From contig JALWNT010000096.1 of assembly GCA_027080995.1 (NCBI GenBank), positions 1 through 35,753 of the forward strand: a DNA stretch of 35,753 bases, in the 5' to 3' direction. How positions within the stretch are numbered: the stretch's first letter is position 1; every line of letters begins with the position of its first letter. This document shows, in pieces, positions 10,637 to 31,979 of this stretch. Both the position numbers and the translations under genes were made by a program. The notes beneath the pieces are model-generated. The model was not told the origin of the DNA and did not search any database. It worked only from the letters and a program-made list of their open reading frames with translations. This stretch comes from Campylobacteraceae bacterium (GTDB taxonomy: Bacteria > Campylobacterota > Campylobacteria > Campylobacterales > Sulfurovaceae).

Positions 10637-10685
10637 CGTTATCCGTTATCCGTTATCCGTTATCCGTTATTCGATATTCGTCATT
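10637..10685. repeat. Heptamer array CGTTATC x4 plus three variants
   Basis: Seven units in phase: CGTTATC four times, then CGTTATT, CGATATT and CGTCATT. It lies in the putative plsY leader. The gradient from perfect to diverged copies at one end is clear. Confidence 0.9.
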
Positions 10686-23543: not shown

Positions 23544-24311
23544 TTATTTGGCAGGGACTTTGAGCTTTTCGCCGACACGAATCACACTCTTGTTGTTCAT
23601 CCCGTTGAGCTGTTGAAGCTCTTTGACGGAAATACCGTAATGGTGGGCGATCTTCGAGAGGCTGTCACCGCTTTTGACGACATAGATCCCCTCTTTTCCC
23701 GATGCAGAAACTTTCGTGCTCTTGGCGCTCGACTTCAAGCCTTTACTTCCCATTTCGATCTTTGCGTCTTTCATCAGCTTCTCGACAAACTTTTTCTGTT
23801 TGAGCTGCATGGCGATGACCGGCTTGACCTTCTCAAGGGGAACGATTTTGCCGGTTTTTCTGTTTTTGAAAAAACGTTTGTTTTTTTTGTAAACGGCTTC
23901 GATCTCCGCATCACTAACGGGGATTGATGTCGACTCTTTACGTACCCATGCATCAGCGATCGCCATCTGCTTCTCCCTCTTGCTCAGGGATTTCTCCGCT
24001 TTTTTCATCAACTCCCGCATATGCTTGCGAACATAAAAATCCAAAATCAACTGTTTTTGAATTTTGGCGGGAACTTTCTGCTTGGCCTCCTCCAAAATCA
24101 GTTTGTCGGTGGCGATGGCTTTGATGACTTTTTGCCGATCAGACTTTTTGAGCATACTGTAATTGGCCCGTCCGCGGGTCGCTTTTTTGACGAAAGCGTT
24201 GGCCTCTTTCAGGGTCACGGGATAGCCGTTGACCGTTGCGATCACTTTCGCAGCAGCGAAAGTGACTCCCATTCCTATCAACAGAATTGACACTGCAAAA
24301 CGTTTTTTCAT
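23544..24311 (-). CDS. SurA-like periplasmic protein with C-terminal LysM domain
   Basis: 255 residues. A signal peptide ([21 protein letters not shown]) is followed by a segment, [20 protein letters not shown], closely like the start of the neighbouring PpiC protein. The middle is helical and very basic, as in SurA N-terminal chaperone domains. There is no parvulin domain; instead the end (about 208-255) is a LysM peptidoglycan-binding module ([20 protein letters not shown], then [11 protein letters not shown]). It looks like a duplicated PEB4/SurA chaperone whose prolyl isomerase half was replaced by a cell-wall anchor. It probably helps outer membrane proteins at the peptidoglycan layer; this is inference. 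Confidence 0.8.
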
Positions 24312-30140: not shown

Positions 30141-30161
30141 GAGTGAAGAGTGAGAAGTGAA
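30141..30161. repeat. Heptamer array GAGTGAA, GAGTGAG, AAGTGAA
   Basis: Three near-identical 7-base units fill the uvrD-truB gap. They contain the truB ribosome site (GTGAGAAG) and the GTG start codon at 30157. Confidence 0.7.
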
Positions 30162-30987
30162 TCGCCTCTTTGTCGTCGACAAGCCGATCTTTGTCTCCTC
30201 CAACCGCTATATGAACGTCATCAAGCGAAAATACGGAACGAAAAAGGTCGGCTTCTCCGGGACACTGGATCCTTTTGCCACCGGTTGCCTCATCGTCGCG
30301 ACGGGGCAGTACACCAAACTCTTTCAGTATCTGGACAAAACGCCCAAAACCTACCGCGCGACCCTCTGGCTCGGGGCCGAATCGGCCAGCCTCGATCTGG
30401 AGAATATCCTGAATATCCGCGATGTTCCAAAGGTGGATGAAACGAAACTCCGACGGATTCTCACCTCCCTGGAGGGGGAGCTGGAGTATCTGCCCCCCAA
30501 ATACAGCGCCAAAAAAATCGACGGAGAGAGGGCCTACCGGCGAATGCGCAACGGCGAAGAGGTCACATTGAACTATGTTCGTTCAAAGATTTACGAACTG
30601 CGTCTGCTTCACTACCGCCACCCCTTCGTCACCTTCGAAGCCACCGTCAGCGAGGGGACCTACATCCGCAGCCTGGGAGCGATGATCGCCGAGGCTCTGG
30701 AGCTCTCCGGAACCCTGAGCGCTCTGCGTCGCCTCCGCGAGGGAAAATTCCGTATCGGGAACGAAGAATCCCTGGATCCTCTGAACTATCTCGCCCTGCC
30801 GAAAAACCGATACTTCGGAGACCTCCAATGGCTCGAACTCGGCAAAAAGCTCCATCCCCGCTTTTTCGAAAAACAGGAAAACGGCCTCTACGTCGTCGAA
30901 ACCGAAGAGTTCTTCTCCATTCTGGAATTCAAAGAGGGGGAAATCAAATACCGGCTCAATCGGATCGAAAAGTATAGGGGAGGATGA
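30157..30987 (+). CDS. truB: tRNA pseudouridine(55) synthase
   Basis: 276 residues. TruB makes pseudouridine 55 in the T loop of tRNAs. The N-terminus MNRLFVVDKPIFVSSNRYM matches the family in this phylum. The catalytic aspartate is D38 in GFSGTLDPFATGCLIV. KTYRATLWLG, PPKYSAKKIDGERAY and EGTYIRSLGAMIAE are further signatures. The start is GTG at 30157, supplied by the third unit of a heptamer repeat. It ends with TGA directly followed by the ATG of a 66-codon frame. In Campylobacter, as I recall, csrA lies between truB and ispE. Confidence 0.93.
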   Translation: MNRLFVVDKPIFVSSNRYMNVIKRKYGTKKVGFSGTLDPFATGCLIVATGQYTKLFQYLDKTPKTYRATLWLGAESASLDLENILNIRDVPKVDETKLRRILTSLEGELEYLPPKYSAKKIDGERAYRRMRNGEEVTLNYVRSKIYELRLLHYRHPFVTFEATVSEGTYIRSLGAMIAEALELSGTLSALRRLREGKFRIGNEESLDPLNYLALPKNRYFGDLQWLELGKKLHPRFFEKQENGLYVVETEEFFSILEFKEGEIKYRLNRIEKYRGG

Positions 30988-31188
30988 ATGTCGCAAGTCG
31001 CAAGTGAAGGCGCCTTCGGCGCGGTTATTGGAAGCGTTGCAATGCAACGCCAACCGAAATCATTCACCATTCACCATTCACCATTCACCACAAGATTCTC
31101 ACTCAAAAATCGCTTACTAGTTACTAGTTCCTCGGTGCTAGTTAAAAAACATTCCTGGCGTGATTTTCATCGGAAGGAATTCCGATGA
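30988..31188 (+). CDS. Possible 66-residue leader peptide between truB and ispE
   Basis: The frame starts with ATG immediately after the truB stop (TGAATG), with GGAGG four bases upstream, and ends in TGA overlapping the ispE ATG as ATGA. Its geometry is thus that of a true operon gene. Its content is not: it runs MSQVASEGAFGAVIGSVAMQ, through palindromes and heptamer arrays, to FHRKEFR. It has no resemblance to CsrA, which occupies this place in relatives. It may serve only to carry ribosomes through the hairpin at the ispE start. It could also be open by chance, since these repeats contain no stop on this strand. Confidence 0.4.
   Translation: MSQVASEGAFGAVIGSVAMQRQPKSFTIHHSPFTTRFSLKNRLLVTSSSVLVKKHSWRDFHRKEFR
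30990..31010. repeat. Heptamer array GTCGCAA x2 plus GTGAAGG
   Basis: Two identical units and one variant in phase directly after truB. The array runs into the palindromes at 31006-31050. Confidence 0.65.
31006..31050. repeat. Cluster of perfect palindromes
   Basis: GAAGGCGCCTTC (31006-31017) is a perfect 12-base palindrome. It overlaps the hairpin GCGCC-TTC-GGCGC (31010-31022). GCGTTGCA-A-TGCAACGC (31034-31050) is a perfect 8-base-pair hairpin with a one-base centre. There is no T-run, so these do not look like terminators. Confidence 0.85.
31061..31088. repeat. Heptamer tandem repeat CATTCAC x4
   Basis: Four perfect tandem copies of CATTCAC between truB and ispE, with a partial CACA continuing. 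Confidence 0.92.
31116..31143. repeat. Heptamer array ACTAGTT x2, CCTCGGT, GCTAGTT
   Basis: Four units in 7-base phase, two identical, one strongly diverged and one nearly identical. It overlaps a poor -10-like TGCTAGTTA. Confidence 0.65.
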
Positions 31189-31195
31189 AAATCAC
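31160..31195 (+). promoter_or_regulatory. Perfect 16-bp hairpin enclosing the ispE start codon
   Basis: The arm at 31160-31175 is the exact reverse complement of 31180-31195. The loop is GGAA, a GNRA tetraloop. The right arm includes the ispE ATG (31185-31187) and the next codons. The ribosome site AAGGA (31174-31178) straddles stem and loop. In RNA this would hide translation initiation. A GGA in a hairpin loop over a ribosome site is also the arrangement bound by CsrA-family regulators. Confidence 0.9.
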
Positions 31196-31979
31196 CGCTC
31201 CCGCCAAAGTCAATATTTTTCTCAAAATCACCGGACACCGCGACGGGTACCACACCCTTCTCTCCCGGTTCATGCAGGTACCCGATCTCTACGACACCAT
31301 CCGCTTCGTCCCCTGCGACTGCGAGACTTTCACCATCGAGGGCTGTCCCGGCGTCCCCAGAGAATCCAACACGATCTACAAAGCCTGGAGAGCTCTCAAC
31401 GAGGCGACGGGGGATCTGGATCTGCTGGAGTTTTTCTATCATCACAAAGTAGTGGTACAAAAGCGTATCCCCTCCCAGGCCGGCCTGGGAGGGGGCAGCT
31501 CCGATGCGGGTGCCTTCATGCGGCTGACCCGAGAGGTCTGCAACCTGAAACTCTCCATCGATGAACTGGCTCAAATCGGCTCCGGGATCGGCGCGGATCT
31601 GCCATTTTTCATTTATGATTATCCCAGCGCCAATGTCTCGGGCTTTGGAGAGGTCGTCGAACCCTTCGACGAAGCTCCCCTCCCCCTCGACATTTACACC
31701 CCTCCGGTCGGCTGCGACACCGCCCAAGTCTACAAAATCTTCAAAGAGCGCTTTTTGCCCCGGATCGACCTCTCCTCTTTCCGAGGATGGGAAGGGCTCC
31801 CCTCCGCCGATCTTCTCGAACGCATAGCAGACCCCTCCCTCCTCAACGATCTCTATCCCGCCGCGCTGCTCGCGTGCCCGAAACTTCGGGAATACGAACG
31901 CCCCGGCTGGTTTTTCAGCGGAAGCGGCAGCAGCTTCTTCCGCCTCCATTTTTCGACTGAGCATTCCGCCCAGCTCTAG
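31185..31979 (+). CDS. ispE: 4-diphosphocytidyl-2-C-methyl-D-erythritol kinase
   Basis: 264 residues. IspE is the GHMP kinase of the MEP isoprenoid pathway, usually essential. APAKVNIFLKITGHRDGYH (5-23) and the ATP loop IPSQAGLGGGSSDAGA (95-110) are diagnostic, and FFSGSGSSFFRL near the end is the third GHMP motif. The ATG is fixed by these N-terminal residues and the AAGGA before it. This start sits in a perfect 16-bp hairpin and overlaps the stop of a preceding 66-codon frame. The gene ends 1 base from the stop of the cytochrome gene on the other strand. In relatives smpB follows directly, as I recall. Confidence 0.94.
   Translation: MKITAPAKVNIFLKITGHRDGYHTLLSRFMQVPDLYDTIRFVPCDCETFTIEGCPGVPRESNTIYKAWRALNEATGDLDLLEFFYHHKVVVQKRIPSQAGLGGGSSDAGAFMRLTREVCNLKLSIDELAQIGSGIGADLPFFIYDYPSANVSGFGEVVEPFDEAPLPLDIYTPPVGCDTAQVYKIFKERFLPRIDLSSFRGWEGLPSADLLERIADPSLLNDLYPAALLACPKLREYERPGWFFSGSGSSFFRLHFSTEHSAQL

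Follow-up and report, generated by a model that had tools for sequence, protein, structure and literature searches.

The perfect hairpin over the ispE start codon looks like one of many inverted copies of gene ends beside heptamer arrays in a presumed Nitratifractor genome

Introduction

The start codon of ispE lies within a perfect hairpin in the window, by which is meant the whole 35,753-nucleotide stretch of DNA analysed here (contig C96 of genome G000). The preliminary description of this DNA offered several readings of the hairpin: an RNA lock on translation, a DNA operator, or a gene start duplicated in inverted orientation. The question is therefore whether the structure is a private switch for ispE or one instance of something more general, and how its arms came to be complementary.

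Results

The ispE start hairpin

The ispE gene (31185..31979, + strand, 264 aa) encodes 4-diphosphocytidyl-2-C-methyl-D-erythritol kinase, a product name taken from the preliminary description, and orthologues were found in 57 of 60 relatives. The perfect 16-bp inverted repeat occupies 31160-31195, with 100% complementary arms and a 4-nt loop. The right arm, TTCCGATGAAAATCAC (31180..31195, +), is the original gene start and consists of TTCCG, the ATG (31185-31187) and codons 2-4, whose MKI/MTI coding is kept in relatives. The left arm, GTGATTTTCATCGGAA (31160..31175, +), is the copy, as judged by comparison of orthologues. A Shine-Dalgarno-like GGAAGGA runs from the 3' end of the left arm into the GNRA-type loop, GGAA (31176..31179, +). 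Sequence comparison of the arms thus bore out the geometry first described, that is, exact 16-base arms with such a loop, the ATG in the stem and the ribosome site across stem and loop.

The folding-energy check proposed at the outset came out positive: folded as RNA, the hairpin has a minimum free energy of -27.2 kcal/mol, whereas shuffled versions average -11.7 (z -5.4), and 0 of 200 shuffles were as good. When the whole window was shuffled 60 times with dinucleotides preserved, the longest perfect stem with a loop of 3-8 was 12 bp (one shuffle), the usual result being 9-10 or none. The ispE mRNA should be able to form the predicted hairpin, and some effect on translation is likely. An Rfam scan of the window gave no family matches anywhere, and hence no known thermometer family. 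The suggestion that the GGA of the loop is a CsrA site fails as a general idea, the loops of the orthologues being variable (GGAA, tc, gcct and others).

The truB-ispE spacer and the ispE start in relatives

The upstream neighbour of ispE (30157..30987, +) was named truB, a tRNA pseudouridine synthase, from our reading of its protein. The element GGGGAGGATGAA (30977..30988, +) represents the ancestral ispE ribosome site followed by ATGA(A), and its overlap with the truB stop persists, as in the spacerless genome G006. Between the genes lies a spacer (30988..31159, +) composed of G-type heptamers, GC stem-loops and C-type heptamers, and this spacer is absent from G001 and G006. On the truB side, the heptamer GTCGCAA is repeated with the G-type on top (30990..31005, +), in a vocabulary also seen in other spacers. 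It is followed by the GC stem-loops GGCGCCTTCGGCGC (31009..31022) and GCGTTGCAATGCAACGC (31034..31050), the latter recurrent in spacers of the genus, by a (CATTCAC)n array with the C-type on top (31059..31090, +) and by two copies of TTACTAG (31114..31129, +). The left arm of the palindrome has no direct contact with an array in the window, whereas sister species do have such contact.

The genus is taken to be Nitratifractor, the nearest named contigs being from Nitratifractor sp. and from Campylobacteraceae/Sulfurovaceae metagenome assemblies. Genome G011, a single contig of 2,101,285 bases, is presumably N. salsuginis. A hairpin of different sequence is present at the same place over the ispE starts of G002, G005, G008, G009 and G011, and a decayed one in G010. 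There is no ispE start hairpin in G001 or G006, nor in the array-free G003, G004 and G007. In G001 and G006, truB abuts or overlaps ispE, and in G006 the end of truB contains both the ispE ribosome site, GGGGAGG, and ATGA. The truB genes of G000 and G005 still end in GGGGAGGATGA (GAGGGAGGATGA in G002); a spacer of ~180-240 bp follows, and the new ispE ribosome site of these three genomes sits inside the palindrome. In the ispE tree, a single-gene tree of modest support, the spacerless G001 is sister to the hairpin-bearing G002, and G006 comes next. The spacer and hairpin state thus changed more than once.

Heptamer arrays across the genus

In 800 kb of G011 there were 46 period-7 arrays, against 0-8 for other periods, and 1 in 400 kb of the control genome G034. 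Tandem heptamers are mostly intergenic, with 8 arrays inside coding sequences in G011 and 0 in G000. Searches for the heptamer pattern were clear in eight genomes of the genus, weak in G010 and negative in G003, G004, G007 and G012.

The spacers follow a common plan, in which G-rich heptamers adjoin the left gene, GC stem-loops lie in the middle and C-rich heptamers adjoin the right gene, so that the G-rich repeat strand runs 5' to 3' away from each flanking gene. In the genome samples, the ratio of convergent to divergent array polarity was 57:5 in G011, 14:3 in G000 and 60:4 in six other Nitratifractor genomes, and the rule holds equally at arrays bordering 5' and 3' gene ends. In G039, which belongs to another family of the order, the ratio was 30:4.

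Several smaller features of the arrays were also seen. A (CGTTATC)n array lies at 10637-10673 of the window, with more degenerate heptamers around it, and the start of the contig (1-28) falls within an (AAATTCA)n array, which suggests that heptamer arrays break assembly. Two very long uniform arrays occur in G011 (L048 13130-13509 and L050 4110-4474, with AACGACC and CTCAACT units), together with 8 arrays of period 8. In many spacers a GCGTTGC-n-GCAACGC stem-loop, exemplified by 31034-31050 of the window, separates the G-type and C-type arrays. The polar arrays of G039 (L126-L145) are of the same GGTCATT type, and almost no junction palindromes accompany them.

Inverted copies at the starts and ends of other genes

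The start hairpin is not confined to ispE. The start of a tsaD-like gene bears a hairpin in 8 genomes, of up to 23 bp, and a hydrolase-like gene start bears one of 18 bp in G001, G002, G006 and G008, with matching synonymous changes in the arms. At the ispE, tsaD-like, hydrolase-like, selB-like and truB starts (the last four named from our reading of the proteins), a hairpin was found in many array-led orthologues and in none without an array; some array-led orthologues of these genes have no hairpin. The structures are near-perfect inverted copies of adjacent sequence and are absent from relatives lacking the spacer or array.

The association was counted by scoring an inverted copy of a coding terminus of at least 11 bp, with at least 7 nt in the coding sequence, in samples of eight Nitratifractor genomes rather than whole genomes and with genes called by a simple caller. 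An inverted copy was present at 18 of the 76 gene starts that border a period-7 flank and at 1 of 666 that do not (p 4e-18). For gene ends the corresponding figures were 10 of 123 and 2 of 567 (p 1e-6), and both array-less exceptions adjoin degenerate heptamers by eye. The array threshold was loosened after the 3' cases had been seen, and the 3' enrichment depends on it, with p 1e-6 at 16/21, 0.003 at 17/21 and 0.35 at 18/21. Specificity for starts, as indicated by a strict array detector (18 of 48 starts and 3 of 73 ends), was rejected when the looser detector found both ends enriched; the strict detector missed the 3' cases because these palindromes sit at more degenerate heptamers. Starts nevertheless carry a palindrome three times as often as ends at arrays (24% vs 8%, p 0.003), and many array-led starts have no such stem. 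Almost no junction palindromes were found in the control genome G034 and one in the array-bearing G039.

In examples of 3'-end palindromes (L042 3156, L061 12849, L088 15220 and L160/L161) the copy lies beyond the stop codon and is followed by G-type heptamers. The possibility was considered that these are intrinsic terminators, and it was rejected because G/A/T heptamers, not a T run, follow the stem. The border palindromes copy the host gene, and no palindrome sequence is common to the loci. The ispE hairpin consequently looks like one of many gene-specific copies of gene ends and not a private switch for ispE.

Ribosome site and start codon within the hairpins

The Shine-Dalgarno sequence is inside the hairpin in 22 of 22 start hairpins of at least 10 bp. 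Fifteen of these have the start codon in the right arm, and the other 7 have it in the loop or at the junction. All seven of the latter genes have CTCC, CCTC or TCCT in codons 2-6, compared with 10.8% of genes, and the inverted copy of these codons is the Shine-Dalgarno sequence. A C-type array reading into a gene contains few or no G residues and cannot supply a Shine-Dalgarno sequence; start palindromes may be retained more often because the inverted copy can.

Changes in the arms

The proposed comparison of ispE upstream regions for compensatory changes found paired changes in both arms between species. Among six aligned ispE starts, both-sided changes occurred at 7 of 16 pairs (12 cells), with 1 G-U cell, and in a second gene the counts were 5 and 0. 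The arm changes thus occur together without G-U intermediates, although the numbers are small. Under selected RNA pairing, G-U pairs are expected to be far commoner than A-C mismatches, an expectation not calibrated here. The mismatches in the start hairpins comprised 3 G-U and 10 A-C (raw), or about 8 A-C when G005, which was listed twice, was counted once. These counts differ from an assumed 80% G-U expectation (p 2e-4) and do not differ significantly from equality.

Template switching is known to generate perfect stems and to keep them so by changing several paired bases at a time (PMC8794818), and it homogenises arms in coding DNA, within codons (PMC8604942). An AAA/ACC change at codon 2 of ispE is mirrored in the left arm, which fits such homogenisation. 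In several species the arms differ synonymously and yet match perfectly along 18 bp, which selection could explain equally well.

Discussion

Origin of the palindromes

An inverted duplication of the gene terminus by fold-back or template-switch synthesis, at a border with heptamer filler, is on balance the probable origin of the ispE hairpin; its arms would be kept alike by DNA copying, and starts would be favoured because a ribosome site comes with the copy. Duplication of the gene start, one of the options first listed, is the best supported of them: the left arm is a gene-specific copy, and this explanation is preferred because the pattern recurs at unrelated genes, is associated with arrays and is found at both gene ends. 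A spacer of 7-base repeats would have been placed between truB and ispE, where fold-back or template-switch DNA synthesis would have copied a short piece of the ispE start in inverted orientation. Strands may have been extended inwards from both flanking genes, the fold-back first and the heptamers after. The ribosome site would then be given by the loop and the tip of the left arm, as in ispE, or by the complement of CTCC in codons 2-6, and the arms would stay complementary mainly by recopying of one from the other. What is inferred in this account is how the copying works, in which sequence its steps follow and why selection would favour starts. Several results count against it: the excess at starts (24% vs 8%), which would not be expected of a purely neutral process; the polar arrays of G039 with almost no junction palindromes; the variation of the 3' association with the array degeneracy allowed; the perfect 18-bp arms that selection could also explain; the lack of a candidate enzyme among RVT_1 and Ku matches; and, in the window, a left arm that does not adjoin the array.

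More tentatively, Nitratifractor might possess a dedicated or very frequent form of DNA-end extension by which intergenic regions are rewritten. At either gene border, a free 3' end would fold back, copy about 10-20 nt and gain G-rich heptamers before the two ends were joined, and lost ribosome sites would be remade from the inverted copy of the gene's first codons. This wider proposal is possible and rather doubtful. Enzyme searches covered RVT_1 and Ku. An RVT_1 reverse transcriptase acting in the manner of a telomerase or retron was rejected, as none of the array-bearing genomes of the genus gave an RVT_1 match, and Ku-type end joining was rejected as no Ku was found in any genome of the genus.

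The main rival is a selected RNA element, in which the unstructured, G-free leader is a ribosome standby site and the hairpin hides the Shine-Dalgarno sequence and start until opened by a ribosome, an S1-like protein, a helicase or temperature, the stem being kept by compensatory mutation. The presence of the Shine-Dalgarno sequence within every start hairpin, the paired changes at synonymous sites and the bias towards starts are all in keeping with it. Additionally, array-led starts have more strongly folding leaders in the samples of G000 and G001-G009 (p 0.013, 4e-7 and 8e-5), and more weakly so in G011 (p 0.07). However, the same copies also occur at the 3' ends of genes, which offer no start codon to lock, the mismatches have no G-U preference, many array-led starts have no stem, the palindrome-bearing genes share no common function, and essential genes would hardly be expected to have start regions as stable as -27 to -42 kcal/mol. 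The RNA element is rather unlikely. Of the lock first proposed for ispE, what stands is the pairing; it co-varies between species, which gives an RNA role some probability.

A DNA-level site, that is, a palindromic operator or cruciform read by a protein, is improbable. Perfect dyads with strict Watson-Crick arms and no G-U bias are also expected for DNA recognition, but the arms are gene-specific and differ between orthologues, and therefore offer a regulator no common sequence, only a cruciform shape. A mobile palindromic element of the MITE or REP kind, inserted at gene borders with its own hairpin, is less probable still. The spacers do share a plan, a small vocabulary and recurrent GC stem-loops, their presence or absence varies between close relatives, and the ispE spacer has a GATGAA on either side. 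The border palindromes, however, copy the host gene and not a shared element, and no constant terminal sequence was seen. Chance or an assembly artefact is scarcely credible even though the named relatives compared are draft metagenome assemblies, given the strong enrichment of inverted copies at array borders and the fact that separate assemblies, the single-contig G011 among them, have species-specific versions at this site.

If inverted duplication is the origin, DNA copying could give many genes a perfect, co-varying hairpin across the start codon that is not a regulator; this bears directly on the usual rule that co-variation proves functional RNA. Furthermore, the heptamer repeats, long noticed but unexplained, would be linked to a process that is polar and anchored to genes, and there would be a route by which a gene's own coding sequence provides it with a ribosome site.

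Relation to known systems

Hairpins that sequester ribosome-binding sites and RNA thermometers of the ROSE and FourU type likewise have the Shine-Dalgarno sequence and start codon within a stem-loop. The Nitratifractor hairpins differ in having no family match, in being almost fully Watson-Crick, in occurring at unrelated housekeeping genes and in having the same structure at 3' ends. In the P-nucleotide palindromes and filler DNA of V(D)J or end joining, a short inverted copy of a coding end is followed by added sequence, as is the case here. The present palindromes, in contrast, are bacterial and longer, the added sequence consists of heptamer repeats, and no Ku was found in the genus.

Searches of the Nitratifractor literature yielded nothing on start-codon hairpins or intergenic repeats. 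Heptamers and template switching are known as ingredients, and no description of their combination was found. The cyanobacterial STRRs and the TAACTGA repeats of Beggiatoaceae (PMC4679880) are alike in their period of 7, intergenic site, frequent position beside start codons and related variant units. The Nitratifractor arrays differ from them in their many units, in a polarity fixed relative to the gene on each side and in junction palindromes specific to each gene; among 170 sets of the TAACTGA repeats there was a single inverted repeat of the unit (PMC4679880). Template-switch, or quasipalindrome, mutation resembles the present cases in its one-step perfect arms, multibase paired changes and changes within codons (PMC8794818, PMC8604942), whereas the Nitratifractor cases cluster where genes meet heptamer arrays and recur genome-wide.

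Other inverted repeats in the window

Two further perfect inverted repeats were observed in the window. One, of 10 bp (TCACTTTCGC/agca/GCGAAAGTGA, 24242-24265), has no array nearby and lies within the start of a minus-strand gene (23544-24311) whose product looks secreted. The other is a loopless repeat of 13 bp (CCCCTCCCAGGCC/GGCCTGGGAGGGG, 31469-31494) within ispE itself, over the codons of the GLGGGSSDA motif.
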